Assembly: GCA_907163375.1 (NCBI GenBank) | Contig: CAJQUW010004412.1 | Coordinates: 105,001 to 169,000, forward strand | From: Prostheceraeus crozeri | Taxonomy: Eukaryota; Platyhelminthes; Polycladida; Euryleptidae | Direction of reading: 5' to 3' | Length of the DNA stretch: 64,000 nucleotides | Shown here: positions 10,658 through 27,536 of the stretch, piece after piece | Position numbering within the stretch: the stretch's first letter is position 1 | Layout: each line of letters opens with the position of its first letter | Notes under the pieces: model-generated | Database searches by the model: none | The model's input: only the letters and a program-made list of their open reading frames with translations | Told to the model about the DNA's origin: nothing | Position numbers and translations under genes: made by a program

Positions 10658-10663
10658 AACATA
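10658..10663 (+). repeat. Polinton TSD, left (AACATA)
   Basis: The six bases immediately before the left TIR are repeated directly after the right TIR at 27021-27026. Six-base duplications are typical of Polinton integration. Confidence 0.95.
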
Positions 10664-11196
10664 AGTAGTATATAGTGTGACATCCGGCGCGACGCTTCGC
10701 TTCGCTTTGCTTCGCTTCGCTTGCGCCGGATGTCACACTTTTGCGGGTTTTTTCAAAAAATCAAAATTTCAAAAATTTAGGTAGACTTCAAATTTCACGT
10801 GGCCGAAGACCGAAGGGGGGAAAATTTAGGTAGTGACAAATTTTCAAAAAACAAAATTTCAAAAATTTAGCCGGTCTCAAAATATCACGTAATCTCAAAT
10901 TTGAGATTAAGATCATTTTTTTACTTTGAAAATCATGACCGTTCAAGGACACCGAAAATCATAAAAGTTAAGAATCTCAAAATTTGAGAATTACAATTTT
11001 CATTGCTTAAATCATGACCGTTCCAGGACACCGAAAATCATAAAAGTTGAGAATTTCAAATTCATGAATTTTATCCATCTTTCAGGTTTTTAAAATATAT
11101 CATGTGACTAATAATATTTCTTTAAAAATGGAAGAAACAAAAGTGGAAGGAACCTCAAGAATATATCCTTCGTTATCATATGAACGTAGTTCTACT
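10664..11196 (+). repeat. Polinton left terminal inverted repeat
   Basis: This pairs with 26488-27020; both are 533 bp with about ten differences by eye. It contains the terminal hairpin, GC-rich TTCGC repeats, two copies of a roughly 65-bp block around ATCATGACCGTTC, and the start codon of the first gene at 11128. Confidence 0.95.
10674..10739. repeat. Terminal hairpin, left end
   Basis: A perfect 17-bp stem (AGTGTGACATCCGGCGC and its complement) encloses a 32-nt loop made of TTCGC-type repeats, only ten bases from the element end. The mirror copy is at 26945-27010. Confidence 0.95.
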
Positions 11197-11835
11197 TTAA
11201 TGGACATTGAAAAGATTAACATTGAAAAAATGAATAAAGAAAAACACAAAGATAGAGTAAGGTATATGAAAGATAAGGAATCTCAATTATTATTAAGATT
11301 AGAGCATTATAAAAAATTAAGAAAGAGATGGACTCAAGTTAAGAATGTAACACAAGGAATTGGCATATTCTTAACAATAAGTTTAGGTGCTTTAACAATT
11401 GTTATATCTTCAGGTGTTTTAGTAATTCCAGTAGTTGCTACTGCTTTAACAGGTACGGGTGTTTTTGCAACTTCACTTGTTACAATGTTAGATAAATCTT
11501 TAATAACTAAGAAACGAAAATCATTAAAAACTAAGCATTTACATATTAAAGAAGTCTGTGATAAACTACACTACTACTTTCAAAGAGTATGTGATGATAA
11601 TGTTATTACGTTAGATGAGATTGAAAAATTTGATCAAATAGCTAATGAAGTAAATCAAACCTTTCAATTACAGTCCGAAAAAGTTGATGATAAGAATAGA
11701 CAGGATGGCAAAATTTCTAGTGATGGCAAAATTTCTAATGAAGAAAATGACAAAATTTTTTTAGAAGAGCTAAAAACTTTAAGCGAAAATTTAAGCAAAA
11801 CTTTATTAAACAAAACTTTATTAAACAAAACTTAA
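11128..11835 (+). CDS. Polinton protein with hydrophobic hairpin, unknown
   Basis: The frame is open upstream to 11104, but the first ATG is at 11128 in an AAAAATGG context like the other genes of the element, giving about 235 residues. Its first 23 codons lie inside the left TIR; the matching right-TIR position (26554-26556) has GTG instead. The protein has a charged N-terminus, then a long hydrophobic Gly/Ala/Val segment (IGIFLTISLGALTIVISSGV onward) suggesting one or two membrane helices, then a helical charged region. The C-terminus is a run of KTLLNKT-type repeats. TAA at 11833 lies where neighbouring repeat units have TTA, and the frame stays open to 11904, so the true end is uncertain. 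Family not recognised; membrane-associated virion or assembly protein is a guess. Confidence 0.6.
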   Translation: MEETKVEGTSRIYPSLSYERSSTLMDIEKINIEKMNKEKHKDRVRYMKDKESQLLLRLEHYKKLRKRWTQVKNVTQGIGIFLTISLGALTIVISSGVLVIPVVATALTGTGVFATSLVTMLDKSLITKKRKSLKTKHLHIKEVCDKLHYYFQRVCDDNVITLDEIEKFDQIANEVNQTFQLQSEKVDDKNRQDGKISSDGKISNEENDKIFLEELKTLSENLSKTLLNKTLLNKT

Positions 11836-11971
11836 AACGAGAAAACTTTAAACGAGAAAACTTTAAACGAAAAGATGTCAAACAACAAAGCAATAAAAAA
11901 ATAATTTGTTCAGTAAAATGTTTTTGTTGTATTCCAATGTTATCACAAAATTCAAATATTATATTTTAAAA

Positions 11972-12793
11972 ATGGATAAAATTAAAGCTGATAATCAAAA
12001 AAGAATTAAACAATTAGAAGAGTTAATAAAACAAAGAAATATTATGAAAGAAAATCATCTTCAACATAGAATGATAAAAGCTGGCATTCAATCTGATATG
12101 TTTGAAAAAATGCAGCAAACCGAGCAAGTAAAAACTGATTTTGAGAAAACTATGAAACCATTTAAAACTCTTGAAAAAGAAAGTACAAATAATGATAAAC
12201 AAATTGATATAACAGATCCAGAGCACAAAACTATATTAGATGACTATGGATTACTAGAATCAAACATTAATAAGAAATTACCAAAATCTATGCAATTTGA
12301 ACATTCTATTTCATTTATAGATGGAAAAATAATACCTAGATTTTATCTCGGACAAAAAGAAATATTTCCACAACCTTTTCGAGGTTTAATTTTTTCACCA
12401 GATAAATCTCCTTTTAATTTAGATAGAAATTTTGTTAATCTTTTAAGAGGAGCAGATTTAAATAATTATGCTGTAGAAGATCTTATAAAATGTAAAGCTA
12501 TGTTAGACAGAGTTGGTGCAGTAAAATCTCTAAGACGTTATAAACGATTAGAAAATTTATTATCAACGGGAGTTAAAGTAGGAAAAGGTTTATCTGAAAA
12601 ACAGAAAACAGAAACAACCATATTTTTACCAGATGATCCACAAGAATTACTAAATAGATTAAATATTTTAATATCTGCAATAAAAGAAGGACATAATTCT
12701 AGTTTCAATGAAATTCATGCTATATTGAAAAGACTGTTAGAAAAGAAGATTCTAAATGAAGAGGATTATAAAAGTGTAACTGGACATCTCTGA
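11972..12793 (+). CDS. Conserved-type Polinton protein, unknown function
   Basis: I chose the ATG at 11972 (TTTTAAAAATGG, the start context shared by the element's genes); the frame is open further upstream without a comparable start. About 273 residues: a lysine-rich coiled-coil N-terminus (residues 1-65), a central region with FIDGKIIPRFYLGQKE and PFRGLIFSPDKSPF, then the motif LLRGADLNNYAVEDL with KSLRRYKRLENLLSTG. The last looks like a family-specific signature I associate with other invertebrate Polintons, but I cannot name a function. The last codons and the stop TGA fall inside a GC-rich hairpin element (12782-12813). Confidence 0.65.
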   Translation: MDKIKADNQKRIKQLEELIKQRNIMKENHLQHRMIKAGIQSDMFEKMQQTEQVKTDFEKTMKPFKTLEKESTNNDKQIDITDPEHKTILDDYGLLESNINKKLPKSMQFEHSISFIDGKIIPRFYLGQKEIFPQPFRGLIFSPDKSPFNLDRNFVNLLRGADLNNYAVEDLIKCKAMLDRVGAVKSLRRYKRLENLLSTGVKVGKGLSEKQKTETTIFLPDDPQELLNRLNILISAIKEGHNSSFNEIHAILKRLLEKKILNEEDYKSVTGHL

Positions 12794-12813
12794 TGTCCTC
12801 CAGGGCTTCGCCC
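12782..12813. repeat. Double hairpin element across a stop codon
   Basis: GGACATC-TCT-GATGTCC followed by GGGC-TTC-GCCC. The first hairpin contains the last codons and TGA stop of the gene ending at 12793. An inverted relative with the same two hairpins sits inside the polymerase at 18893-18923. Confidence 0.9.
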
Positions 12814-12879
12814 GTAGCTGAAATATGTTGTTTCTAATTTTTTTTAAAAAAAATATTTATTTAAAATTTTAACTAAAAA

Positions 12880-13663
12880 TTGTGTTCAGCAGATTTAGAC
12901 AAAATTAATAATCATTTAGAAAATTTGACAGAGATTTTGGGTTCATCAACGTACGACGTTAAAAATTATAACAACTACTTCTTCACACACTTGTAATTTA
13001 GAACCCATTCTACATTTAGAACAGAATAAAAATTATCAAATTGCATTGACTAGTTTCTCTACATTTAACACTATTCAAAACGTTATCAAAGATGTGAATG
13101 ATCAATTTAGATATTCTACTGATAAAGTCAAAACGTGGAAAGTACTAACTTTTCTTCCTGGTTCTTACGAAGTTGAATCAATATCAAATGAAATTAAGAG
13201 AAATTTAGGTATACCATTTAAAGATAAGAAACAATTACATTTTGCAGTTGAACCGGCAGTTAATAAATTTTCTCTTACTTTAGACGAAAATCATCAAGTT
13301 GATTTTAATCATGATAGATCATTGTCAAAGCTATTAGGATTTAATAAACAAACCTATAGTCAAGGTTATCATTTAGGTGAGAAGATTCCAAAAATAACTG
13401 AAATAAATTCAACTGTTGTACATTGTGACATTATTGAAGGAGGATATATAAATGGTAAATTATCAAATTTAATATTCAGTTTTCCAGCTTTTACTGTACC
13501 CATTGGTTATAGATTAAATGTATTTCCACAAACATTAATATATTTTCCTATTACAAGAAAAACTATTAACAACATTAACATTAGAATCACTGATGAGAAA
13601 GGGCAAGAAATAAATTTTGGAGGTGAAGAGATTATGATAGATCTTTTGGTTCGGGAGGTATAA
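12880..13663 (+). pseudogene. Beta-rich virion-type protein, frameshifted
   Basis: The readable 3' part (from about 12990) contains LEPILHLEQNKNYQIAL, TFLPGSYEVESISNEI and a C-terminal KTINNINIRITDEKGQEINF block. This beta-rich layout is shared by a family of Polinton proteins that I regard as capsid-associated, possibly penton-like; the assignment is tentative. No ATG opens this frame. The region 12883-12990 reads sensibly only in another frame, so a frameshift lies in the ACACAC run near 12985. The expected start position reads AAAAATTGTG rather than AAAAATG. The stop at 13661-13663 overlaps the first hairpin repeat downstream. Confidence 0.55.
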
Positions 13664-13733
13664 ACTCCCGTTCGGGAGGTATAAACTCCCGTTCGGGAGG
13701 TATAAACTCCCGTTCGAGAGGTATAAACTCCTA
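13650..13733. repeat. Four tandem 21-bp hairpins
   Basis: The unit CGGGAG-GTATAAA-CTCCCG is repeated four times (the last decayed), starting within the last codons of the capsid-like pseudogene. Each unit alone folds; the array could act as a terminator or RNA-end structure. Confidence 0.9.
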
Positions 13734-13816
13734 CGCGAAGCTAGAGAAGTTTAATTTTCTTCTTCTTCTTTAGAAAAAAAAATAAAAAAATAAAAATAAA
13801 ATTTTTTTATTAAAAA

Positions 13817-14584
13817 ATGAGTGAATTACCTCCATTAAATAAAAAAAAACTTAAATTTAATCATCATCCAAATTTATCTAATAAAGTTTTGTCAGTTATT
13901 TGTGGAAGATCAGGTTGTGGAAAAACATATCTATTATTTAAAATTTTAACGACTCCAAATTTTTTGGATTATAACAATCTTATAATTTATACAACAACGG
14001 CAGAACAACCCGTCTATCAATTTTTAAAATATGGATTTGAAAATAATCTTAAAAAAACAGCAATTGCTTCATTATTCAAAGAATATGAAAAATCTGAAGA
14101 TGAAGAAGAAATAAGTTCGTGGTGTGAAGAAGCAACAAAAAATAATCAGTTAGTAGAATCTAATAAAAATAACCATATAAAGATACAATTAATAGATGAT
14201 AGTGGTAATATGCAAGATCCTAGTAAACTAGATAAAACAATGAAAAATTGTGTAATTTTTGATGATTGTGTTAATGATAGAAATCAGTCAGTTCAGAGAA
14301 ATTATTTCACAAGAGGTAGACATAATAACTGTAGTGTTTTTTATTTAACACAAAGTATGTATTCATTAGACGGAAGTGTTATTAGAAAGAATGCAAATAT
14401 ATTTATACTATTTGAAATAAATGCAAGAAACTTAAGTGATTTGTTAAGAGATTTATGTGTAAGAAATAAAGATGAATTTAAACAATCGTGTAACAATGCT
14501 TGGTCAAAAGATTATGGCTTCATTACAATTAATATTGATAAAAAAATTCATGAAAGAGTTATCGAACAATTGTTCTCTGACTGA
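13817..14584 (+). CDS. Polinton packaging ATPase (FtsK/HerA type)
   Basis: A 255-residue protein with the Walker A motif GRSGCGKT (residues 29-36) and Walker B CVIFDDCV (about 148-155). A conserved YLTQSMYSLDGSVIRKNANI segment follows, matching the sensor region of A32-like genome-packaging ATPases. These enzymes translocate linear dsDNA into preformed capsids. The ATG follows TTTTTTTATTAAAAA, the recurring upstream motif of this element. Length is normal for the family and I see no break. It sits on the plus strand after the capsid-like pseudogene and ends 112 bp before the natural end of the convergent polymerase. Confidence 0.88.
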   Translation: MSELPPLNKKKLKFNHHPNLSNKVLSVICGRSGCGKTYLLFKILTTPNFLDYNNLIIYTTTAEQPVYQFLKYGFENNLKKTAIASLFKEYEKSEDEEEISSWCEEATKNNQLVESNKNNHIKIQLIDDSGNMQDPSKLDKTMKNCVIFDDCVNDRNQSVQRNYFTRGRHNNCSVFYLTQSMYSLDGSVIRKNANIFILFEINARNLSDLLRDLCVRNKDEFKQSCNNAWSKDYGFITINIDKKIHERVIEQLFSD

Positions 14585-14695
14585 AAGAGTTATAGAAAAT
14601 ATTTTCGCGGAGTGATAAAAATATACAAATATAGCGTTATAATATTTTTTTATCTTATGTATATATCAAATTTGTCTATCTTAGAAATTAGAAAA
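14585..14695. other. Convergent intergenic gap
   Basis: About 110 bp of AT-rich sequence between the ATPase stop and the end of the reading frame downstream of the polymerase's premature stop. No terminator-like feature beyond T-rich runs. Confidence 0.4.
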
Positions 14696-16191
14696 TTAAA
14701 AAGGTGAAGTAGTTATTCCATCAGGTAAAATTTTTCTTTTATCATCAAATGGATCTAATGCTAATTTATGTTCTTCTTTTCAATACATGTTATGTTTTTT
14801 TGAATTAAGTCTATAATTACATGCTGTTTTTATTTCATTATTAAAAAATACATTTTTATAATCTTGAAATGTTATTTGATTAGCCACTGATGCCTTTGAA
14901 ATTCCTTTTAATGTTTTATGTGTTTTAATATTATTAGTTGTATCATAACAGTAACATTTAGATTTTAAAAATATAGCTTCTGTTATGAAATCTTCATTTC
15001 CTTCTAATTCATCTTTTACTTTACATAAATCAGAAGGATGAATGATATCTTTTTTTTTATCTATTTCTTCATCAAGTGTAGAATTATACGGTATTGTTAA
15101 TTCTAAGAAAACAGAATCTGTATCTGTAAAGTGTAATTTATAGTTTTTGCCATAAGCAGGTGCTAAATAATCATATATAAATCTATACATAAATAGTTTA
15201 GCTAATTCTAATATAGTGAAACCAATGAAATTAAACTTATCATGTTTTACGCTAATTCGACGTAAATGTACAGCACATAGTTCATCACTAAATCTAGTAG
15301 TTCTTTTATATGTAGGTTTCCTTGTTAAATTTTGAAACCTATCTTTATCATAAACTATTTCAATATTTTGTCTATTACGCACATTTTCTAAAGTCTTACC
15401 ATAAAATGCATTATTCATTAATTTGAAGAACACGTTTCCAAAATCATCTTTATTTCTTTTAGCTATTTTGCGTTTTTCAATATTGAACTCTATATAATTT
15501 TTTAACCACCTAGATTTTTGATAAAATAGTTTTCGATGTATTTTGGTGAGAATCATTCCATGATCTAAATACCAATCTAGCATTCTTCCTTCAACAACAT
15601 ACTTTCCTTTTTTGCTTTGTGTTAACATAAGTTTTTTTGTTGGTCTGTATTTTTTAGGAATTAAAGATTTTTGATAATCTGAAAAATCTTCTATATTAGG
15701 AATTTTGTTTTCGGGACAGAAAGGAAAATATTTTGTTTTATCTTTTATTTCATCAGGGTATACTAAATCAACTTCATACATATAACCATGATTATAATTT
15801 CCATCATATGTTTTTTGATAATCAAGAATATTACACCATGACATTTCACCTGTTGGTAATTCTTGTATCATGCAAGAAGAATATAAGCTATTAAAATCAT
15901 AATATAACAAATAGTTTTCTCTCATGATTTCATCAACTGCTGCTTGACTATCTTCATTTGATATAAGTCCTTCTATATTTTGATTAAACAATTTTATAAA
16001 CTGATCACTTTCTTCTGGAGATAAAGGTTTCATTATTCCATAATCATCAGGATCTACTTTTTTATTGTAACATTTAACATATCTATTACCTAAAACTGAT
16101 GAAACTCCACCTCTAATTCCAGATTCAAAAAATAATGATTTATCATATGTATTTTCTTTATAATGTTTAAGTTTAACGGACTTTGTCCTAG

Positions 16192-16582
16192 AGCCATCGG
16201 CTTGAACACCAGTATGTTTTAATCCTGCTAGCCATGTTAAACCTGGTGTAGAATAACAATAACATGGATCTATTCCGTAATATTCTAAACACATGTCACG
16301 AAAGTTTTCGAAAAGATCAGCTAGTATTAATACATCTATCTGAAGATATTTCATTGTATAATCATACATTGTTTTACAATTTAACTCTCTCCAATTCTTT
16401 TCAGCTTCTGCATAGTCTTCGTCAGATAATTGTGATTGTTTTAATGTTGATTTAAATTTATTTATTGGAGGAAGTTGTTCTTCTTCCATAATTTTATTCA
16501 CAGAATTAAAATCAGTCTTCGACTGTGAACCACAGGTTTTATCTCCAGTTACATCAGTCTTCGACTGTGAGCCGCAGGCTAT
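16192..16582. repeat. Three hairpins inside the polymerase gene
   Basis: AGCC-ATC-GGCT at 16192-16202, and CAGTC-TTC-GACTG at 16513-16525 and 16555-16567. The last two are direct duplicates (with CACAGG/CGCAGG tails) and encode the doubled peptide CGSQSKTD. Confidence 0.85.
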
Positions 16583-16957
16583 ATACTCATACGGAAATAT
16601 TCCTTTTAAAGGTTTTAAATTATATTTATTTAATATTTTACATTGTTCAGATTTCAAAGTTTTTCCCATAACATCTAATGAATAAGGAGTAAAAAATCTA
16701 AATGCATCTAAAATTCTAATACAACCTAATTGCATTGAAAAATATTCTTCTTCTGTTTTACATAGTACATTTATTTGTTGTTGTTGTAATTTTTCAGATG
16801 AAAATAAATCTTTCATTACTAGATGGAAATCATATTTAGAACCATTGTAGAAATATAGAGGAACAAAGTTATATTTAAATTTATTAGCATTAAGATTACA
16901 AGAATTATGTGCTGCACCTCTATATAATCCATTTAGATGATCATGATCTTTTACCTT

Positions 16958-16972
16958 GACGGCAGAGCCGTC
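16958..16972. repeat. Hairpin in the polymerase endonuclease-like region
   Basis: GACGGC-AGA-GCCGTC, in frame, encoding KRSDGSAVK between the CxxC and DHDH motifs. Confidence 0.85.
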
Positions 16973-17337
16973 ACTTCGCTTGTCAAGATATCTACCTTTG
17001 CCATTTTTATAATTTTTTGTAAATTCTTTTCCACAGTAATAACATTTTGTTTCATTAATAAAATTTAATTTTTCTTTTTCTGTTAATGGCATCATTGGTA
17101 TATTTGTTTCAAGCAATTGTGAAAAGCGACCTTGTAATTCTTCTACTTTCTTTGTAAACATTTCTGAACTATCTTCACCATAGTATTGAAAATATTCTGA
17201 TTTAAATAATTCAGGATAATTTGAATGAATGTACATTCCCCAACATAATGGTTTTTGTTCAAATAAATATTTTTCTTTGCTTTGTTCAGGCGCACTTCTT
17301 TCAGGCGCACTTTTTCCGGAATTATCATTTTCAGAAT

Positions 17338-17366
17338 CGGGTGAAGCCCTGGAACTTTCCGTTCGA
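17338..17366. repeat. Decayed double hairpin in polymerase
   Basis: A degenerate GGGT/GCCC and GGAAC/GTTC pair encoding RTESSRASPD. Just beside it, two copies of a GGCGCACTT unit encode APERSAPE. Confidence 0.7.
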
Positions 17367-18892
17367 TTTTGTGTCATATTAACATTATATGCTTCAAAAT
17401 CACAATAAATAGTAAAGGGTACTTTATTTTGAAAATACCATTTATTATATTCTAAATAATCATCTTTAGGAAATGTGTTTCTGACTGCTTCATTTTGTTG
17501 GCAATTCTCCAAATGTCTATTCATTTCTTCTTTAGTTCTAAAACTTGTCATACATTGGAGACAAGGAAAATTGGCATTATCTGAAGTTCTTGTGAATATA
17601 GAAACATCTTTACAAAATATAAAATGACCCTGATAATATAATATATTCGCTTGTGCTGGCTGTTTTGTCTGTTCTAGTTTTTCAAATTTATCTTGATATA
17701 TTTCATGTGTTTCATCAATTTCTTTTGTAAGATTAAATGTATTTCGATGAAAATTTTGATTTAAGATTTGTAACTGATAACTATATTCTTTATCATATTG
17801 TTCTTTATATTGTTGTAGACATTTTTTTAAAGATTCATTTATTTTTTGATTGGTTTCATTTTCTTCATTATTTAATTCTTTATTGTCTTCATTTAATTTT
17901 TGAATCGTTTCTATCTTATTTTGATATTTATGGCCATATTCTTGTACTAATATTTTTGTTTGTTGTTGATAATCTGTTTTACATTTTTGTAAACTTTCAT
18001 TTAAATTTTGTAATTTTTGTTGATATTCTAAAAATAAAGATAAATAATCGGAATCATAATCATAATTATAATTACGTCCTTTATAATTATTATGACTAAT
18101 CATTATTGGTGATAATGTTTTTATAATTTCAAATTTTTCAGTACATATTATATTTCCTTGGTAAAAAATATTATGATGCATGTAATTTCCCCTATCATTA
18201 TATACTATTTCTGATTGACATACATTTTTATTATTCAAATAAAATTTTTTTGAATCTGAGTAAAGTGGAGTAATTTTACCAATAGAAACATAATTCACAT
18301 TTAATTCAAAAACATTTACTTCTATTAAATTTTTATTCTTTTTATGAAACTTTTTTAACCTATTATAATCATATGGAAATTCATCTAAGCCATCAGAAAG
18401 ATCAAATTCATTTATGTATTCTTCTTTATTGTAATGACTTAGTCTTTCTTTGTGATATTTTGCAGGATGTAAATGTGCTATAATTCTCCACAGAAAACAA
18501 TAATCATCTTCATTTTTTATGTTGATTATTTGTGGTGAACTGAAAGGCAAAGGAACATAACTACCACCAGTATTATTTTTATATTTATCAATTACTATTT
18601 TCTTAGATAGTATTTTAACAAATCTCCAACCAGATTCACGTAACTGGGCTTCAATTATACAATTTTCTAATTTAAGTATCATCGATTCAAATATGGGTTG
18701 TATATCATTTACATTATGAATTTCTTGTGAATTTGTAAAATGTCCTTGTATTATTTCTTCAGGAATTCCATCAGGTCCATTTTTTGTATAAAGTACTTCT
18801 ACTTTCATATAACATTTGAAAGATTTCTTAAATATATTATAAAAGTTTGTTAATACATTATAAAAAGTTTCATCGGTTTCATTATATTCAAC

Positions 18893-18923
18893 GGGCGAAG
18901 CCCTGAAAGACATCTCCGATGTC
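18893..18923. repeat. Double hairpin in polymerase N-terminus
   Basis: GGGC-GAA-GCCC and GACATC-TCC-GATGTC, the reverse complement arrangement of 12782-12813. It is in frame and encodes RGTSEMSFRASP. Confidence 0.9.
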
Positions 18924-19033
18924 CCGCGAACAGACTGATTAAATAAATATTTTATATCTGTTACGGCTTCATCAAATTCATCTATTTCGTTAAATTCATC
19001 AGTATCGCTAAATAAATATCTTCCATCTGGCAC

Positions 19034-19059
19034 GGGCCAAGCCCTAGAACCTTCGGTTT
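19034..19059. repeat. Double hairpin in polymerase N-terminus
   Basis: GGGC-CAA-GCCC then GAACC-TTC-GGTTT, encoding QTEGSRAWPVPD. Nearly the same element as 20028-20053. Confidence 0.9.
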
Positions 19060-19228
19060 GTAGGGTCTCATCTTCACTATTAAAAACTTTTTTATATTCC
19101 GAATGTGAATAATCATCAAACATTTTTTTAACTTTTATATCAGTAGGTAATGTTTCTAGATAGTTTATATAATTATTTAATTTTAATATATTTCCTTCAT
19201 CAACTCGATCTACATTTTGTAAATGCAA

Positions 19229-19472
19229 CTTCTTTTTGTTTGCAACTTTTTTTTACATAAGACACAATAAAACTTGGTATTTTCCATTTTTTTATTTTTT
19301 TAGAGAAAATTTAAGAAAAAATTTGTGTTTTAATTTTAGATATAAACATTCTAATATCAAGGACTTGAGTGTTATTTTATATTATTATATATTTCACGTT
19401 CTTTAGTTATTTTTTTTCTTTATCACATTAAGTTTTATCATATTACGTTTTATCATATTAAGTTTTATCATA
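19229..19472. other. Gap with 15-bp tandem repeats
   Basis: At 19422-19503 a 15-bp unit (TTTTATCATATTAAG) repeats about five times across the 3' end of the clamp-like gene. On the minus strand each unit encodes YDKT plus TAA or TTA, so the stop codon itself is repeated. Upstream of PolB there are long A/T homopolymers, including ATGTAA just before the frame. Confidence 0.7.
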
Positions 19473-20777
19473 TTAAGTTTCATCATATAATGTTTTATCA
19501 AAAGATAATTTAAATTTTTTTTCACTAACTATTGATTCTTCATCATCATCATCAATTGATTCTTCATCATCATAAATTGATTCTTCATCATCATCATAAA
19601 TTACACTTTTTGGGATTGGATACCATTCCCTGATAGGAATATCTAATTCTAAATTACATTTCTTATCTGATAATAATATAATAGAGAAAAATATTGGTCT
19701 TTGTTCTCTTTTGGAAAATTTAATAACACCACTATAATCTGAATCACTTTTAGTTTTTATTAAAGATGATAAAATTTTAAATTGATTAGATGTAAATCCT
19801 AATTTAAATTTTGTAGACCCGACACATGGTTGTCTAACAGTATCTTCAACTATTCCATCATTATTATTTTCAATTGTAAGAAAATGAAATTTAGATAAAT
19901 TTTTATAATTACTAATATTTTTATAATCTTTTTTACCATTTACACCTTTTTCAGATGTTTCAGAATCATCATTTATATTATCATCATCTATATTATTATC
20001 ATTATTATCATAAGATTCTTTAAGATCGGGCAAAGCCCTAGAACCTTCGGTTCGTTTATTATGATTATGGTCATTGTTAATAGTATAAGGTGTTGTCCAC
20101 ATATAAATTTTCTCTTGTTGAGATAAACCATTTATATAAGATTTTAATAAATTAATATTTAAGTTGGAATATAATCCTATATACGTATCATCATCATATC
20201 TTTGCGGCATTTCTAATGTTTCTTGTTTATAAATTGTATCTCTATAATATACTTGACATAATAATTCTTCGTTATGCTTTTTACTCTCTATATGAATGTT
20301 ATATTGATTTTGTTCATCAACAAATAATCTTATTTTTTCTTTGGAAAAAGATTTTAATTTTTTAACTAATTCTTTAATATTGATATAATTAATAATTTTA
20401 GTTTCTATCCAATCAGTATTACTAATCGGCAAAACTGCTCTAATAAAACCATAAACATTATTATGACCAATAATAACCATATTTTCTTTATTTAATTCAA
20501 CATAAGCTACATCATTATATTTACTAACAATATCCATAAATTTAATAAATGGATCACCTGGAAATAAACAATAATTAGTTTCTATAGAAGGTAAACCTTT
20601 AGTCTGTTCTCTAAATATTTCGGCTTGTAATTGAAATAAAATATTAACATCTATACATGGATTATTATTATTATTATTATTATCAAAACATTTATTTTCA
20701 AATCCCGTTGATCTCGTCGAATAAGAAGAACAGGATGATGCGGACGAATATAATTTTTTTAAATTTGGTTTTTCCAT
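19473..20777 (-). CDS. Possible sliding-clamp-like protein
   Basis: 434 residues. After a serine/asparagine-rich N-terminus, residues about 75-185 show the alternating strand-helix-strand pattern of a PCNA-type half domain (PFIKFMDIVSKYNDVAYVEL, NINIKELVKKLKSF-like helix, then IRLFVDEQNQYNIHIES). A second such region follows at about 200-225 and 300-390, split by an acidic linker (DNNDNNIDDDNIND). The linker contains a hairpin-encoded TEGSRALPD peptide (20028-20053). The tail is acidic (DDDDEES repeats). The gene lies next to the polymerase on the same strand, which suits a processivity factor, but the assignment rests on pattern only; a capsid-related or family-specific protein is possible. 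Confidence 0.4.
   Translation of the reverse strand: MEKPNLKKLYSSASSCSSYSTRSTGFENKCFDNNNNNNNPCIDVNILFQLQAEIFREQTKGLPSIETNYCLFPGDPFIKFMDIVSKYNDVAYVELNKENMVIIGHNNVYGFIRAVLPISNTDWIETKIINYINIKELVKKLKSFSKEKIRLFVDEQNQYNIHIESKKHNEELLCQVYYRDTIYKQETLEMPQRYDDDTYIGLYSNLNINLLKSYINGLSQQEKIYMWTTPYTINNDHNHNKRTEGSRALPDLKESYDNNDNNIDDDNINDDSETSEKGVNGKKDYKNISNYKNLSKFHFLTIENNNDGIVEDTVRQPCVGSTKFKLGFTSNQFKILSSLIKTKSDSDYSGVIKFSKREQRPIFFSIILLSDKKCNLELDIPIREWYPIPKSVIYDDDEESIYDDEESIDDDDEESIVSEKKFKLSFDKTLYDET
20028..20053. repeat. Double hairpin in clamp-like gene
   Basis: GGGC-AAA-GCCC then GAACC-TTC-GGTTC, both stems perfect; it encodes RTEGSRALPD within the acidic linker. This is the clearest reference copy of the family. 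Confidence 0.95.
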
Positions 20778-20853
20778 TTTTTTATTTTTATTAGAAAAAA
20801 ATTTATTTTTTTTATTTTTATTAGAAAAAATTTTATTTTTTTATTGTTAACAA
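20778..20853. promoter_or_regulatory. Divergent AT-rich promoter region
   Basis: The 76 bp between the clamp-like gene (minus) and the fibre-like gene (plus) hold two direct copies of a block around TTTTTATTAGAAAAAA. Similar T-rich/ATTAAAAA sequence precedes several other start codons of the element (ATPase, MCP, 23914 gene), suggesting a common virus-style promoter. Function is inferred. Confidence 0.45.
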
Positions 20854-21741
20854 ATGATGTTAACAAATGTTGGTGGAGGTGCATATATCCCGAATAATCG
20901 TGAATTAGAAATAGAGATGGAAAATTATATCATGAAAACTGGAGACGTTTTATCTGGTCCATTGCATCTTTCTATTCTTCCGCAACAAAATACAGAGTTA
21001 ACAAATAAACAATATGTTGATACACAAATCAATGACTTAAAAGAAAAATATATAAACGATGTTTTGGTTCCACTGATGAATGAATTAAAGTTGCTAAAAC
21101 TTAATGACAAATCATTAAACGAAAAATTATTAAAACTTGATAAAAAGGATAGAGAGCTAGAAGCAGATATAGCAAAACTTTTTAAAAAGATTTCTGAACA
21201 ATCAAAAATTTTAATATTACTTTCTTTAAATTTAAAATCTGCTGTAATTAAAAATAAACATCAGATAAAAATGTTAAAAGAACAATTAGAAGATGAAATA
21301 GAAAATCTACCTGAAAGAATTTAAAAAAATTTAAAGCAGTTACAAACTACATTCCAAAAAAGTGTTGATGAATTGAGTTCTAAAATTACTCAACAAATGA
21401 AAAAGATGAATAGAATAATAAATGAAGTAAACTCGCTTAATCAAAAAGTTGATAAAATGAAAACTCTTAAAATCAATTTAGAAAATGAATTAAAGAAAAA
21501 TTTACAAGAAAACTCTAAAGAAAATAAAGAACAGTTAGATGCTGTTAAAAGACAATTAGATGTTCTTAAAATTAAGTTAAATGCACTTAAAACGGCGTTG
21601 AAGATGAATCAGGAGAAAATGCAAGTTAATAGAAAATAAATTAAAGTACATCACACGCTGCTTGACGCAATAGATAAAGTGCAACAGTCAATTAATAAAG
21701 TTATCTCGAAGTTGTTGTCCATTCACAAACGTAAATCTTAA
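20854..21741 (+). pseudogene. Fibre-like coiled-coil protein with two in-frame stops
   Basis: One uninterrupted frame from ATG 20854 to TAA 21739-21741 is broken by TAA at 21322-21324 and 21637-21639 without any frame change. Residues about 27-60 carry the signature MKTGDVLSGPLHL..TNKQYVD, typical of attachment regions of phage and virus fibre proteins. The rest is long heptad coiled coil (KLNDKSLNEKLLKLDKKDRE, then IINEVNSLNQKVDKMK, then LLDAIDKVQQSINKVISKL). Coiled coil continuing across both stops in the same frame is good evidence that they are nonsense substitutions. Likely a trimeric surface fibre in the ancestral element. Confidence 0.65.
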
Positions 21742-21783
21742 CACGTAAATATTTTTCCCAAAAGTCAAATTTAATCTTAAAAA

Positions 21784-22329
21784 ATGCCTATAATTTATAA
21801 ACACAATCTTAAACATTTTGCTTCAAATCAAAAAATTGCTCATGAACCACGTATGAATCCTGTTTATCATTATGATAATAGAGAAACAGTCGGAACACAA
21901 AAGTTCCTAGGCACCGCAGGTGCCGTTCACACGGAAGGAGCTGGGATCTTCTCTGGTATTGGAAGTATCGTTAACTTAATTAAAAATAATAAAGATTTGA
22001 TTACATCTGCCGCAAAAGGAGCAGCTGCTATAGGTAGTACAGCTAGTGCAATATCAAATGCTGTCAAGTCTCAAAACGAATTAAAACAACTAGAAGCTAT
22101 TCGTAAACTTAGGAATGATTCCGAAGAACTAAAAAAATTAAAAAAACTTTCAGAGGAAACAAAAAACAAAATTGCTAACATAGCTGTTGGGGAAACCTTG
22201 AGGAGCGGAGCTCCGTCTGATAGTAAACATAATGAAAAAACAATTGAAGAAATAAGAGGTAATGGCGTGAGCAGCAACCTTCGGTCTAACCAGCAAAGCT
22301 GTAGCGGAGCTGGTCTAGCAAAATTCTAA
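21784..22329 (+). CDS. Small hydrophobic virion-type protein
   Basis: 181 residues, starting at an AAAAATG context. Basic N-terminus, then GAGIFSGIGSIVNLIKNNKD followed by an Ala/Gly-rich helix (SAAKGAAAIGSTASAISNAV), which looks membrane-active like internal capsid proteins of adenovirus-type viruses. Three GC-rich hairpin elements lie in its coding region: 21910-21924 (GGCACC/GGTGCC, encoding GTAGAVH), about 22203-22220, and about 22265-22320 at the C-terminus. The gene directly precedes the major capsid gene. No family name is certain. Confidence 0.6.
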   Translation: MPIIYKHNLKHFASNQKIAHEPRMNPVYHYDNRETVGTQKFLGTAGAVHTEGAGIFSGIGSIVNLIKNNKDLITSAAKGAAAIGSTASAISNAVKSQNELKQLEAIRKLRNDSEELKKLKKLSEETKNKIANIAVGETLRSGAPSDSKHNEKTIEEIRGNGVSSNLRSNQQSCSGAGLAKF

Positions 22330-22421
22330 AATTATATTTTAGTAAAATTTTTAGTAATTTTTTTAGTAAAAATTTTTTCTGTCTGTGAGAAAAACAAAAA
22401 GTCAAATTATTTTTTATAAAA

Positions 22422-23756
22422 ATGTCTTCGCTTATCGAAAATAAATTTAGATTAGACGATCCTCCGTTCGTCAGTAATAATCAAAAAAAGAATGACTATA
22501 TAAGAATTGCTATGAATCCCGGATCTTCCAGTAGAGTAAATACTGGAGGTGATTTAATTTTTGAAGTTGATAATCAGCAGAGTTATATATATTTACCTGA
22601 TTCGTTTTTACATTGTGAATATTCTTTATATAGTGATGCTAATTTTACAACACCATTACCAGAAACCGATAATATTGCATTAGAGAATAATTTTTTTCCA
22701 AGATTATTTACACAAATACGTTTAGATGTTGCAACTCAAAATATAGAAACAATAAGTGATTCTCCAGGTGTAATTGATACAATGCTTAGATTTATAACAA
22801 TTGGTGAAAATAATAAAAAGTATGAAATCGAAGGTTGGTTTCCTGATACTAATGATGGTATAATTGTTGATGATTTAACTCACGCTGGAACAGATGCAGC
22901 AGGAATTGCGAATGATGTAGAAAATATTGCAAAACATTTAAATAGAACAAATAATGATGCATATAAAGAAAGACGTGAATTTAACAAGAAAAGTAAACAG
23001 ACAGTAAATTGGTCGTTGACTCCATTATTCGTATATTTAGATTATGACAAAATATCATATCAATTAAAATTTAAGTTAATAATTCATCGTACAGCAAATA
23101 ATGAATTAATCTTTTTTGGTAAGACTGGAAAAAAAGCATATCTAAAAATTGATAGACTTGAATGGTGGATTAAGCATATTACTCCTAGTTTAGAGATTGA
23201 AACAGCTATTGCTAAAAGATTAAATACTAACAAACCAATTCCAGTTAATTTTCTAAAGAGAACTGCTAGTTCAGTAACTTTTTCCGAACAAAGATTTAAC
23301 TGGCATTTTACTAGAACTGCGAATACTCCAAGATATTTATTACTAACATTTCAAAGAAATAATTCTCCAAGTTTTGATAAGAACAACAATATTTTTCATA
23401 TTAATACAATTCGAAGTTTACAAGTTTCATTAAATCAAACCCGATATCCAATTGATCCATTAAGATTCGATGATACCAATAATCAATTTATGGAAGGATA
23501 TGATGCTTATAGAAATCTTTGTATAGAATTTGGAGTTGAACCACAATTAACTCCTGGAGATTGGAGACATTTATATCCAATTTTCTGTTTCGATTTAAGT
23601 GCACAATCTGAAGATATTATCAAGACTGGTTGTGATGTAACAATTAATATTGAAAAGAAAGATTCCACAACTTCATTGATGGCTTATGGTTTATTGCTAG
23701 AAGATGTAAAATATTCTATTGAAATTCTTAATGGAAAGATGACTAGGATCGGTTAG
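22422..23756 (+). CDS. MCP: Major capsid protein, double jelly roll type
   Basis: 444 residues, apparently intact, starting at ATG 22422 after TTTTTTATAAAA. Beta-rich throughout. Characteristic points: the early YIYLPDSFLHCEYSLY strand pair, NWSLTPLFVYLDYDKISYQL in the middle, SVTFSEQRFNWHFT, and the C-terminal GDWRHLYPIFCFDLSAQ segment that marks Polinton/adintovirus capsid proteins. It would assemble as pseudo-hexameric trimers forming the icosahedral shell. Neighbours on both sides are small hydrophobic virion-type genes, as expected for a structural cluster. No hairpin element is inserted in this gene; the nearest lies just after the stop. Confidence 0.8.
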   Translation: MSSLIENKFRLDDPPFVSNNQKKNDYIRIAMNPGSSSRVNTGGDLIFEVDNQQSYIYLPDSFLHCEYSLYSDANFTTPLPETDNIALENNFFPRLFTQIRLDVATQNIETISDSPGVIDTMLRFITIGENNKKYEIEGWFPDTNDGIIVDDLTHAGTDAAGIANDVENIAKHLNRTNNDAYKERREFNKKSKQTVNWSLTPLFVYLDYDKISYQLKFKLIIHRTANNELIFFGKTGKKAYLKIDRLEWWIKHITPSLEIETAIAKRLNTNKPIPVNFLKRTASSVTFSEQRFNWHFTRTANTPRYLLLTFQRNNSPSFDKNNNIFHINTIRSLQVSLNQTRYPIDPLRFDDTNNQFMEGYDAYRNLCIEFGVEPQLTPGDWRHLYPIFCFDLSAQSEDIIKTGCDVTINIEKKDSTTSLMAYGLLLEDVKYSIEILNGKMTRIG

Positions 23757-23913
23757 TAACCTGAGGACCTTTGGTCCAATCGGCTAAAGCCCAAGACTTC
23801 GTCGATTAATTAATTTTTTCATAACTAGAATAGATTAAAAAAATTCTTAACTTAAAATTTTTTCATAACTAGAATAGATTAAAAATTCCTAATTTAAAAT
23901 TTTTTTATTAAAA
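23757..23913. repeat. Intergenic double hairpin and duplicated A/T block
   Basis: Directly after the MCP stop, GGACC-TTT-GGTCC (23765-23777) is followed by a GGC/GCC hairpin (23782-23791). Then comes a roughly 55-bp AT-rich block around CATAACTAGAATAGATTAAA present twice before the next gene. Confidence 0.8.
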
Positions 23914-24393
23914 ATGTCGCAAGCGAAAAGTAATAATAAAACTGTTGAATTAAAATTACGTAATATTGTTGACAAAAATACACCTAAAGCTATTACGATT
24001 AACAAAAAAAAGTATTACATAAGTAAACCAATGATAGAGAATATTCAATTACAAGAAAAAAAGAATGGCGGGATTCTCCCATTAATTCCCCTAATAATAG
24101 GTGGCATAGCAGCTGCAGGAAGTGTTGCAGGTGGGACAGCTGGTATTGTCCAAGCAGTAAATAAAAATAAATCAGAGAAGGCAGCATTAGAAGAACAAAA
24201 ACGTCATAATAGAGAGTTAGAGAAAGTTGCTAGGGGTGAAGGAGTAGTAGATAATTTTATTAGTAAATTAAAATTAGTTGATGAAGGAAAACGAGTTCTT
24301 AAAAATATTCTCCACAATGTTGATGATTTAATTGAAATTAAAGAAACTAAAGATGGTTCTGGAATATATCTAAGTCCTAGTATGATTCGGTAA
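23914..24393 (+). CDS. Gly-rich hydrophobic virion-associated protein
   Basis: 159 residues from ATG 23914 (TTTTATTAAAAATG). Basic N-terminus, then NGGILPLIPLIIGGIAAAGS continuing into a Gly/Ala hydrophobic hairpin, then a charged helix (EEQKRHNRELEKVARGEG), ending in GSGIYLSPSMIR. The GG-LP-hydrophobic-GIV-K pattern followed by KRHNR recurs in Polinton and adintovirus minor virion proteins compared with adenovirus pX-like core peptides; the equivalence is tentative. It lies between the MCP and the phospholipase-integrase gene. Confidence 0.6.
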   Translation: MSQAKSNNKTVELKLRNIVDKNTPKAITINKKKYYISKPMIENIQLQEKKNGGILPLIPLIIGGIAAAGSVAGGTAGIVQAVNKNKSEKAALEEQKRHNRELEKVARGEGVVDNFISKLKLVDEGKRVLKNILHNVDDLIEIKETKDGSGIYLSPSMIR

Positions 24394-24540
24394 TAACCTC
24401 AGGACCTTTGGTCCGATCGGCTAATGCCTCTGAACAAAGTTCTATCGGCTAAAGCCTCAGGACCTTTGGTCCGATTAGGTAAAACATTTATTTTATCTTT
24501 TAAATTTTTTTTATCTTTTAAATTTTTTTTATCTTTTAAA
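24394..24540. promoter_or_regulatory. Hairpin cluster and tandem T-rich leader
   Basis: 24402-24478 holds GGACC-TTT-GGTCC twice and two GGCT-type hairpins, with ATGCC in between that would extend the next frame upstream. Three tandem copies of TTTTATCTTTTAAATTTTT then lead into ATG 24541, the start I prefer for the next gene. Confidence 0.6.
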
Positions 24541-25884
24541 ATGAATTCTACAAATTCCGAAAATCTAATTAAATTAAAAATTTCTAATTTAGATTTATTG
24601 AATTATCTATTAAACAAAAATGAAAACTCAAATTGTCAGCATATTGGAGGTGACAAGAACAAAGTTCCATACCACTTCGGTGGTGATATACAAAAAACAT
24701 TAGAAAACTTTCCTGGATTTATTTGGAGTAAATATTCGAAAGAAAAACATCTTCCTGGTCATTCATATACCGGTCCAGGAACTCGATTAGATATAAGACT
24801 AGATGAGAATAATAATCCGAAACCAGGTGAAGAACCAATAAATAGAGTAGATGCCGCCGCTTACAGGCATGATTTAGCTTATCGAAATCATGATCTAAGT
24901 TCTCGACATGCAGCTGATAAGAAGATGATTCAAGAATTAGATAGTATTCAAAATCCAACATTTAGAGAAAAAATTGAAAGAATGTTTGTTAAGAAAGCTT
25001 TACAAGCTAAAATATTATTCGGACAGGGTTTAAATGAAACTAATAACTCTGAGAGCAACGCTCGAACTAATAACTCTGAGAGCAACGCTCGAACCTACGC
25101 GTCTGAAATTCATAAAGAATACAGAAGGCCTAAATATTTATTGAAAGTAAAAGTATTTAATAAAGATGATATTTGGAGTTCTGATCTTATTCATATGCCG
25201 AATGAAAGGGACTACAAATACGCATTGACCGTTATAGATTTATATACACGATATGCTTGGGTAAAGCCTTTAAAAAATAAAAGTGGTCTATCAGTTAAAT
25301 ATGCGTTTGAAGAAATCTTTAAAGAAAGTAATAGAAAGCCAAGGAAATTGTTTGTTGATAAAGGGTCGGAATTTTATAACCGAAACGTTCAGCCACTATT
25401 TGAAACTGTTTATTCAACTGAAAACGCAGGAAAAGCTGTAGTGATAGAAAGATTCAATCGGACGTTAAAAAATAAATTATTCAAGAAATTTACTGAGCAA
25501 AGAAATCAGAAATGGTTGAAGATATTACCAGGCATTGTAGAACAGTACAATAATAAAGTTCATACAGGTATTGAAGAAACTCCAAAGAATGCTTCTGTCG
25601 ACCCTGATTTGATAAGAAAAAAAATATTCGAGAATAATAATTTGAATGAGAGTAATCCGAATTTGCAGAAACTTAAGCCGAAATTTAAAATTGGAGATAG
25701 AGTTAGAATATTTAAATATAAGAATAAATTTGAAAAAGGCTTCGTCGGATACTGGACGAAAGAGATATTTGAAATTTCTAAAATAAATGAAAGTTATCCG
25801 ATTTCTTACGAAATCAAAGATTTAGATGATGAAGATATCAGAGGCCGATTTTATCAAAATGAATTACAACGAAGTGATTTTTAA
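24541..25884 (+). CDS. Phospholipase A2 domain fused to integrase
   Basis: 447 residues from ATG 24541 (an upstream ATG at 24424 lies inside the hairpin cluster). Residues about 68-135 match the parvovirus-type phospholipase A2: SYTGPGTRLD (calcium loop), then DAAAYRHDLAYR with the His110-Asp111 dyad and HAADKKMI. Residues about 208-345 are a retroviral/Polinton integrase core: D215 (WSSDLIH), D273 (VDKGSEF), E303 (VIERFNRTLK). A basic SH3/chromo-like region follows (KPKFKIGDRVRIF). The D-to-E gap is 29 residues, shorter than the usual 35. No HHCC zinc region is seen. The linker (168-185) is a duplicated 27-bp hairpin unit. Viral PLA2 acts on endosomal membranes; integrase inserts the element DNA. 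Whether one fused product is natural is unknown. Confidence 0.85.
   Translation: MNSTNSENLIKLKISNLDLLNYLLNKNENSNCQHIGGDKNKVPYHFGGDIQKTLENFPGFIWSKYSKEKHLPGHSYTGPGTRLDIRLDENNNPKPGEEPINRVDAAAYRHDLAYRNHDLSSRHAADKKMIQELDSIQNPTFREKIERMFVKKALQAKILFGQGLNETNNSESNARTNNSESNARTYASEIHKEYRRPKYLLKVKVFNKDDIWSSDLIHMPNERDYKYALTVIDLYTRYAWVKPLKNKSGLSVKYAFEEIFKESNRKPRKLFVDKGSEFYNRNVQPLFETVYSTENAGKAVVIERFNRTLKNKLFKKFTEQRNQKWLKILPGIVEQYNNKVHTGIEETPKNASVDPDLIRKKIFENNNLNESNPNLQKLKPKFKIGDRVRIFKYKNKFEKGFVGYWTKEIFEISKINESYPISYEIKDLDDEDIRGRFYQNELQRSDF
25040..25093. repeat. Tandem 27-bp hairpin units in the PLA2-integrase linker
   Basis: Two direct copies of a 27-bp unit containing GAGC-AAC-GCTC encode NNSESNART twice, exactly between the phospholipase and integrase domains. 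Confidence 0.85.
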
Positions 25885-25918
25885 TTATCATTATTATTAT
25901 TATTGGAACTAACGTTTC

Positions 25919-25964
25919 GGGAATGAAATTCCCTTGTTAGGCGTAGCCATAGAACCTACGGTTC
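25919..25964. repeat. Triple hairpin element after integrase
   Basis: GGGAAT-GAA-ATTCCC, GGC-GTA-GCC and GAACC-TAC-GGTTC in a row. It lies between the convergent integrase and protease genes and overlaps the end of the open frame downstream of the protease stop. Confidence 0.9.
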
Positions 25965-26414
25965 GTTCAATTCTAACATTATATCTAGAAATGGTACTCC
26001 TTTTTGTAATTTGTACAAAACGTATTAACATAATTGTCCACAATAGGTAGTGCCTGGTGTTTGAATTTGAAACGTATTGTATGTTCCCGTTCCAAGTAAT
26101 TCTGTTGCTTCATTTGTAGGGGGCAAACCGTATGAATCAAAATAATAGTTCTGCTGATGATTTTTAACGCCTGCTGACCAATGTACGCCTTTTTGGTCTG
26201 AAGTGTGAAGATTGGTTACGAAATTTACAGTTATTGATGGAACTTTGTTCCGGGAACTGAAGGTTCCTGTTGGCTTATTTTTTAGGAATTGTAATTCGTC
26301 TCTCATTAGAACATGAAAATTCTTTATTCCTAATTCATTTGCGATTTTCTTTAGGTCGAAATTTGTCGTAGTTTGCGTTCCATATAATTTTAAAAACTCA
26401 TTTATGTTGTTCAT
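25956..26414 (-). pseudogene. Adenain-like cysteine protease, in-frame TAA
   Basis: The frame starts at ATG 26414 and meets TAA at 26025-26027 after 129 codons, then stays open for 22 more codons to TAG at 25956-25958 with family-like hydrophobic sequence. The catalytic set of the adenovirus-type protease is present: His78 in GVHWSAG, Asp93 in YYFDSYG, Gln117 in FQIQTPG and Cys125 in YCGQ. The enzyme would mature capsid proteins. The stop falls four codons after the nucleophile, inside the C-terminal helix, so the truncated form is probably unstable. A double hairpin element (26239-26267) is inserted in frame and encodes GTFSSRNKVP. Confidence 0.82.
26239..26267. repeat. Double hairpin in protease gene
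   Basis: GGAAC-TTT-GTTCC followed by a GGAAC/GTTCC stem with loop TGAAG; in frame within the protease. Confidence 0.9.
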
Positions 26415-26487
26415 TTTAAAATAAAAAAATTTCTTAAGGGAACCCTAGAAGTCAGAAGGGACCCCTAGAAGTTAGAAGGGAGGGGGT
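26415..26487. other. Short GGGA-rich gap before right TIR
   Basis: Two tandem imperfect copies of a unit around GGGACCCCTAGAAGT lie between the protease start and the right TIR. Confidence 0.5.
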
Positions 26488-27020
26488 AGTAGAACTACGT
26501 TCATATGATATTGAAGGATATATTCTTGCGGCTTCTTCCACTTTTGTTTCTTCCACTTTTAAAGAAATATTATTAGTCACATGATATATTTTAAAAACCT
26601 GAAAGATGGATAAAATTCATGAATTTGAAATTCTCAACTTTTATGATTTTTGGTGTCCTTGAACGGTCATGATTTAAGCAATGAAAATTGTAATTCTCAA
26701 ATTTTGAGATTCTTTACTTTTATGATTTTCGGTGTCCTTGAACGGTCATGATTTTCAAAGTAAAAAAATGATCTTAATCTCAAATTTGAGATTACGTGAT
26801 ATTTTGAGACCGGCTAAATTTTTGAAATTTTGTTTTTTGAAAATTTGTCACTACCTAAATTTTCCCCCCTTCGGCCTTCGGCCACGTGAAATTTGAAGTC
26901 TACCTAAATTTTTGAAATTTTGATTTTTTGAAAAAACCCGCAAAAGTGTGACATCCGGCGCAAGCGAAGCGAAGCAAAGCGAAGCGAAGCGTCGCGCCGG
27001 ATGTCACACTATATACTACT
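26488..27020 (-). repeat. Polinton right terminal inverted repeat
   Basis: Inverted copy of 10664-11196, same length (533 bp), about 98% identical by eye. It includes the terminal hairpin at 26945-27010. The position equivalent to the first gene's ATG is GTG here. Confidence 0.95.
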
Positions 27021-27026
27021 AACATA
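27021..27026 (+). repeat. Polinton TSD, right (AACATA)
   Basis: Direct duplication of 10658-10663, abutting the CT end of the element. Confidence 0.95.
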
Positions 27027-27536
27027 TGTGTTAATTCTTTAAATCGGAGTGGTTAAATGGAGGCTCTCATTATTTTTTAGTAGACAAAACTTAGTTTTCT
27101 CTAAAACAGCATGTGTAATTGATTAGTTAAATGTACTAAAATTCATAAAACTATGCGCGCTTTCTGAGTTCTGTCGAATTCCGTCCTTAAATTACCTTTA
27201 AGATATGTAATTCAGTATACCAAACAATATTACGAAGAAATATTCTGCCAAGCAGTGCCTATTAACGTTTTATACCACAATGATTGATCATCTTTGTTGC
27301 TCATTGAGTTCGAACCCAATCCCTGCTACACGCAAACCGTAAGCACTATCCGTTATTCCATACCGATGCTTGTGACACGATAATGCAGCAGCGTTTCAGG
27401 TGAATCTTTCATCAAGTCACAACAACTACTACTCACAACACTATAGCTGCATATCAATTGTAGTGATAATTCGTAAAAAAAGCTGCGAGAAACCTAATTA
27501 AGATTTTTATTCTTTCAGATTGAACCACCATTCGGT
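27027..27536. other. Intergenic right of Polinton
   Basis: No gene seen. A TTTTTATTCTTTCAG acceptor-like sequence at about 27505-27519 precedes the next reading frame, so an upstream exon may exist. Confidence 0.35.

Follow-up and report, generated by a model that had tools for sequence, protein, structure and literature searches.

We analysed 64,000 nt of the genome of the polyclad flatworm Prostheceraeus crozeri (contig CAJQUW010004412.1, hereafter the window), in which an AT-rich Polinton, a virus-like transposon, spans positions 10664-27020 and carries short GC-rich hairpins both between and within its genes. We consider it quite probable (roughly 0.78) that these hairpins constitute a family of ultra-short, non-coding mobile double-hairpin elements living on one Polinton family. 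Comparison of Polinton copies (L011, L012 and so on; hairpin sites are named by their window position) by blastn of flanks yielded 16 independent clean filled/empty sites, mirrored positions in the two inverted repeats being counted as one; five of the 22 site entries (17304-17366, 20024, 22195, 23755 and 25030) did not form clean filled/empty pairs. Judged by the best allele, 14 of the 16 sites show duplications of 2 bp or more, and judged by the worst, 11 of 16 do, where random placement would give 0.096 per site; alleles without an exact empty partner are omitted from this count. The duplicated bases were mostly TA, AT and AA, and GTA, TAA, GAA, AAC, GT and others occurred as well. For example, the left inverted repeat of the window contains an empty site at 10996-10999 (mirror 26686), reading ACAAT-TTTC, while in L016 and L026 the same place is filled by the 28-nt unit CGGGCGAAGCCCTAGAACCTTCGGTTCG followed by AT between ACAAT and TTTC. 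Similarly, copies L015 and L027 differ by exactly one 28-nt unit plus TA. Such pairs bear out the suggestion of the first-pass annotation, made on the letters of the window, that the units are mobile or copied.

The hairpins themselves are real and local, as that annotation had claimed. When a strict GC-rich double hairpin was defined as two perfectly paired stems, each 4 bp or longer, with loops of 3-4 nt, nine were found in the 16.2-kb Polinton interior versus two in the 47.6 kb of window flanks, and order-2 Markov shuffles of the interior (n=60) contained 0.07 on average and two at most. Seven lay in the 12 examined open reading frames (ORFs), compared with a mean of 0.05 and a maximum of one in 200 synonymous-codon shuffles. 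The annotation had named a count no higher than in codon-matched shuffles as grounds for giving up its own claim; the excess survives this check. The basic unit, 28 nt long, runs from a single C through two hairpins, each with a 4-bp stem and a 3-nt loop and separated by a 3-nt linker, to two end bases. In longer forms, the second hairpin is built on a 6-bp GACATC stem. In the alignment of 13 observed 28-nt units, 96.2% of cells preserved the pairing; at 0.327, the covariation score was above that of shuffled alignments (0.143), none of 500 shuffles being as high. Single-strand DNA folding of five units predicted two hairpins for each, with z-scores of -1.5 to -3.4; the two adjacent small-loop hairpins are preserved despite sequence change. 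No Rfam family was found in window 10001-28000.

A covariance model, R1, was made from the same 13 units, which match it by construction. On the window, it gave seven matches with E < 1e-5, all inside the Polinton, and 11 matches up to E = 1 with filters off, again 11 of 11 inside; on 20 copy regions, there were 49 matches at E <= 0.01. R1 found nothing in the 47.6 kb of window flanks, in 50 kb of other host DNA chosen as a control (one strict double hairpin is contained there), or in 14.2 kb of the 100.7-kb contig C6227, which bears COX1. The visual impression that the flanking DNA is free of units thus holds for R1 matches, and so do the repeated unit types noticed at first: 12782 is the 18893 type in reverse orientation, and 19034 and 20028 are one type. 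The initial grouping of some sixteen loci into one family stands in part: R1 remains silent (E <= 1) at 21891, 22202, 23765, 24402-24472, 24657, 25040-25095 and 26239, although several of these loci too are optional between copies.

The carrier is a member of a high-copy family in the 2.05-Gb P. crozeri assembly. The sole strong COX1 match in this assembly, on contig C6227, points to a polyclad host: behind matches at 91, 77 and 76%, its best named relatives are the polyclads Pseudostylochus intermedius (71%) and Stylochus stellae (70%). All tested features of a Polinton were found in it: terminal inverted repeats of about 533 bp (10664-11196 and 26488-27020, 98.1% identical), a short target duplication (6 bp, AACATA at 10658-10663 and 27021-27026), PolB, an integrase ORF with a phospholipase-A2 (PLA2)-like part, a double jelly-roll (DJR) capsid protein (MCP) and a packaging ATPase. 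Its PolB comprises 1482 residues; relatives match DNA_pol_B_2, and neither a Pfam match to the whole window PolB nor a hit in a PDB sequence search with it was obtained. In the assembly, the core pattern GGGCNAAGCCCTAGAACC had 8608 matches (reversed control 0), the 28-nt form with restricted outer bases 4312 and the GACATC-type units 1465 (control 0 in both cases). Many of the 28-mer matches are, as read by eye among the matches listed, inherited copies at few sites: their flanks identify them with the inverted-repeat site, with 20027 or with 18891, apart from one unplaced row on contig C94 that falls between inverted-repeat matches of a single element. As for the GACATC type, at least nine different trinucleotides precede the unit among the matches listed, so this type sits at several sites. 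Both filled and empty forms of the inverted-repeat site are frequent genome-wide, the empty form having 524 exact matches. Of 20 regions around matches, 18 contained clear Polinton genes, L023 a weak match and L013 the inverted-repeat context only. The core pattern had 0 matches in viral_contigs and 0 in genome_contigs, searches of viral_contigs with the capsid profile and with COX1 yielded nothing, and a peptide-motif scan of 156 proteins found none; the PolB profile retrieved a single locus, L029, which is distant and free of R1 matches.

Within genes, the reading frame is always kept. All 18 alleles at the 14 genic sites, 24-48 bp long, are multiples of three. Of the other three sites, two precede genes within the inverted repeats and one falls among the final codons of ORF 11906-12793; there, the same applies to two of six alleles. 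Because the basic insertion amounts to 30 bp (the 28-nt unit plus the 2-bp duplication), it does not disturb the frame. The R1 units in window genes all share the same phase (6/6). Over the copies, eight of nine canonical coding sites are read in one frame (RTEGSRASPD, ADGSRTKS or CGSQSKTD) and the ninth in another open frame (TGQALEPSV), with the L014 and L027 contexts at 18967 treated as one place and the majority of sites belonging to one gene, PolB. None of the other five frames is as hydrophilic as the preferred one, and GACATC-type units keep the same register (TSEMSSRASP). No stop codon was present in 37 PolB and eight ORF-19473 unit readings inside genes; the one stop-bearing reading, from L014, is the 12776 site and was excluded from the in-gene readings. 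A conserved unit peptide recurs in unrelated genes, namely PolB, ORF 19473-20777 and the L016 homologue of ORF 23914-24393 (SEMSSRASP). In the PolB alignment, QADGSRTKS and both CGSQSKTD peptides are missing from eight of eight relatives; the closest relative, P0037 (75%), begins too late for comparison of the two N-terminal units. In-frame insertion, as initially proposed, is therefore supported by insertion lengths and, where comparable, by PolB relatives. The peptides carried by PolB are TEGSRAWPV, TESSRASPD, QADGSRTKS and CGSQSKTD twice; TEGSRALPD, named in the first-pass annotation, belongs to the 434-aa ORF 19473-20777. Since only frame-keeping insertions, mostly in one hydrophilic reading, are seen in genes, selection on Polinton proteins has probably filtered them.

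The distribution of units among copies does not follow descent closely. When unit presence was set against a tree of PolB pieces (10 copies), 2, 5, 3, 5 and 4 changes were counted at 16174, 16511/16553, 16954, 18891 and 19030, respectively. At 18891, 19030 and 12776, copies differ in the second hairpin on the same first hairpin, or carry a tandem of two units. One and the same 37-nt unit at 15828 is flanked on either side by AT in L019 and by AA in L026. As units recur in distant copies and at mirrored repeat places, they probably spread also via recombination or gene conversion and by copying from one Polinton end to the other. A strong rival explanation is template switching of the polymerase, which assumes no dedicated element and needs no dedicated enzyme: in the course of strand-displacement synthesis, the growing end would jump at a 2-nt microhomology, copy a hairpin located elsewhere and return. 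The swapped second hairpins at 18891, 19030 and 12776, the tandem units (L019 at 12776), the AT or AA surroundings of one unit at 15828 and the short, microhomology-like flanking matches would all be accounted for. On the other hand, unit boundaries are identical from site to site in many cases, and genome-wide a single 28-nt type prevails, which speaks against switching, and we give this explanation somewhat less than even odds.

For a mobile double-hairpin family, we propose the following course. During strand-displacement replication by PolB, hairpins or cruciforms would become exposed to a structure-specific nuclease; its cuts, staggered by 2 nt, would leave ends that are joined or copied at a new place, with selection on Polinton proteins filtering out frame-breaking insertions. 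Judged from sequence, the nearest candidate nuclease is an Endonuclease-VII-like domain inside the Polinton PolB (16780-17110, minus strand; PF02945, E 5.6e-4, 20.2 bits). An Endonuclease_7 match is present in five of the nine members of the PolB alignment at E <= 1e-3, and precomputed domains assign it to more than 30 among the 120 relatives listed. Endonuclease VII of T4 cuts about 2 nt from the junction. The same enzyme cleaves many branched DNA forms, according to PMC3157427. The Polinton integrase is an unlikely agent, since the Polinton's own duplication is 6 bp. A more far-reaching version, which we regard as doubtful, holds that the units are hyperparasites cut and moved by the Endonuclease-VII-like domain of the carrier PolB, even into the polymerase gene beside that domain, the 30-bp insertion and the hydrophilic peptide keeping the carrier alive.

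Several observations weigh against mobility of the units or against this candidate. No movement was observed, and the sites were chosen from indels between copies, i.e. they are no random sample. Site 16954 shows no 2-bp duplication, nor does one allele type at each of 24654, 21889, 19030 and 11108. As for structure, the covariation rests on three variable pairs among 13 related sequences, two of five covariation measures did not rise above shuffles (double-change pairs 3 vs 2.2, 168/500; pair types 5 vs 5.7), and quasi-palindrome correction could be a source of compensatory changes. The window and L019 share four units within a stretch with 11/840 differences, located beside stretches with 68/707 and 58/707, but the former is conserved in other copies too (5/723 to 25/742), so it is only suggestive of conversion. 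Finally, the Endonuclease_7 match of the window PolB lies below the Pfam cut-off (20.2 vs 23.6 bits).

The remaining alternatives fit the data less well. Several hairpins are located at gene ends (12776, 23755 and 24402), as might be expected of functional cis signals for transcript ends, processing or packaging, comparable to the hairpin rule of Mimivirus and Marseilleviridae (PMC5413956). Most allelic sites are, however, inside genes and empty elsewhere, and several copies lack the hairpins at gene ends as well; we consider this explanation unlikely. Bypass of in-gene units by the ribosome instead of their translation, as with the mitochondrial byp elements, has a precedent in the bypassed GC clusters of Magnusiomyces mitochondria (PMC8811140), yet the 18 of 18 in-gene alleles with lengths divisible by three, the counted readings free of stops and the single preferred frame render it very improbable. 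Hardly more can be said for miniature inverted-repeat transposable elements (MITEs) mobilised by a host Tc1/mariner-type transposase with TA duplication. TA is among the duplications and an HTH_Tnp_Tc3_2 match lies at window 48651-49373, but AT, AA, AAC and GT are duplicated as well, no R1 match occurs in the examined host DNA, and TA duplication combined with terminal inverted repeats was not found, there being no such repeats beyond the C..G end. That the peptides are ancestral protein parts lost in some copies would agree with their optional presence only, and is scarcely credible given flanking duplications, the same units outside genes and the absence of QADGSRTKS and CGSQSKTD from all eight aligned PolB relatives.

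In behaviour, the units appear closest to yeast mitochondrial GC clusters, followed by mitochondrial double-hairpin and sponge elements and by Rickettsia palindromic elements. The resemblance to the mitochondrial and rickettsial elements, remarked upon in the first-pass annotation, is one of behaviour and not of membership, since location, duplication bases or length differ. Double-hairpin elements of fungal mitochondria are represented by those of Allomyces. Submariner MITEs are larger and transposase-dependent; they contain no 28-nt double hairpins. Those found in Pandoravirus, a eukaryotic DNA virus, resemble our units in being palindromic and mobile, and some lie in genes (PMC5799277). Yeast GC clusters are known for in-frame insertions in var1, short duplications and a link to recombination (PMC8811140, PMC4464245). 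They share with the Polinton units the nature of short GC-rich palindromes in AT-rich DNA, optional between copies, inserted in frame and with tandem forms, but are mitochondrial, 30-80 bp long and flanked by AG or TAG duplications. The Polinton units, in contrast, reside in a nuclear virus-like transposon, have a 28-nt basic unit, duplicate mostly TA, AT or AA and prefer one frame. The repetitive hairpin-forming elements of sponge mitochondria (PMC2800124) and the fungal double-hairpin elements, compared here by features, are likewise adjacent small-loop hairpins, dispersed and presumed mobile; unlike the Polinton units, they are mitochondrial and mostly intergenic. Rickettsia palindromic elements (PMC10969869) also lie in frame in unrelated genes with a conserved peptide, but they are bacterial and about 150 bp long, a length that the Polinton units do not reach. 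Nematomorph mitochondria contain coding palindromes of another kind (PMC6649704).

The claim that no such elements are known in Polintons agrees with our search of the literature on Polintons and on hairpin-forming in-frame mobile elements, which found no such report among the papers listed, subscription literature being mostly outside its reach. To our knowledge, nobody knows what moves the ultra-short mitochondrial hairpins, which has been a puzzle for decades. Here, a nuclear virus-like carrier with very many copies displays mitochondria-like hairpin behaviour, including filled and empty sites and exact 2-bp duplication, and its gene set is small enough for gene-by-gene testing of the mover. 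If the proposed reading is true, a selfish element parasitises a virus-like element, and new peptides enter a replicative polymerase without killing its function.

The individual hairpin sites of the window are as follows. A GACATC-type unit on the minus strand (12779-12814, TA on both sides) lies in the last codons of ORF 11906-12793 and supplies its stop; this site is empty in L015 and L020 and holds 31-bp or 68-bp forms in other copies. PolB contains five 28-nt units, all on the plus strand: at 16177-16204 (10 added residues in the QADGSRTKS region, AA duplication, empty in eight of ten copies), 16513-16540 (CGSQSKTD, AT duplication), 16555-16582 (second CGSQSKTD), 17338-17365 (TESSRASPD, imperfect second stem) and 19033-19060 (TEGSRAWPV, with the TA duplication clear in other copies). 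The same gene harbours a 24-bp hairpin insertion at 16954-16987 (RSDGSAVK), located in the Endonuclease_7-like region and showing no 2-bp duplication, and a plus-strand GACATC-type unit at 18890-18931 (TSEMSFRASP, AAC on both sides), which in other copies is of GAACC type or absent. Further 28-nt units on the plus strand lie at 20027-20054 in ORF 19473-20777 (RTEGSRALPD) and at 25938-25965 downstream of the integrase ORF. ORF 21784-22329 carries a divergent 36-bp double hairpin at 21891-21924 (GT duplication; missing in L011, L014 and L022) and, near its end, a 48-bp hairpin-rich insertion at 22262-22312 (missing in L012 and L024; L011 differs further). Hairpins at the capsid gene end (23751-23790) are variable or missing in other copies, and tandem GGACC/GGCT hairpins (24402-24475) are located at the end of ORF 23914-24393 and the start of the next ORF. 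Finally, 33-bp double hairpins are located at 24655-24687 in the PLA2/integrase ORF (missing in L016, L018 and L028) and at 26238-26270 in ORF 26025-26414, initially annotated as a protease (missing in L025).

Further features of the Polinton and its surroundings are the following. The PLA2/integrase ORF (24424-25884) joins a phospholipase-A2-like domain (Pfam Phospholip_A2_4) to an integrase core (rve), and L024 carries extra sequence at the junction; the ORF may have arisen by fusion of two genes or by a local loss between them. PolB residues of approximately 445-575 (around 17500-17900) form a long glutamine/glutamate-rich stretch missing from eight of eight aligned relatives. Four tandem 21-bp GGGAG-GTATAAA-CTCCC hairpin repeats are situated at 13645-13730, at the end of ORF 13046-13663; their copy number varies among elements, and they gave no R1 match. 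Within the terminal inverted repeats, a sequence of about 90 bp is itself repeated (10750-11100 and mirror); the number of these internal repeats again varies among genomic copies, with 78-115 bp between matches genome-wide. A 178-aa ORF without Pfam match (27537-28073) adjoins the Polinton, and ORFs of the host flank encode a LINE (long interspersed nuclear element)-like reverse transcriptase with endonuclease (39791-42788) and a piggyBac-type transposase (DDE_Tnp_1_7, 55570-57296). As for contig C6227, its 100.7 kb exceed an ordinary animal mitochondrial genome, and in its COX1 (L035), TGA is read as tryptophan and the ends are unusually long (594-aa reading).

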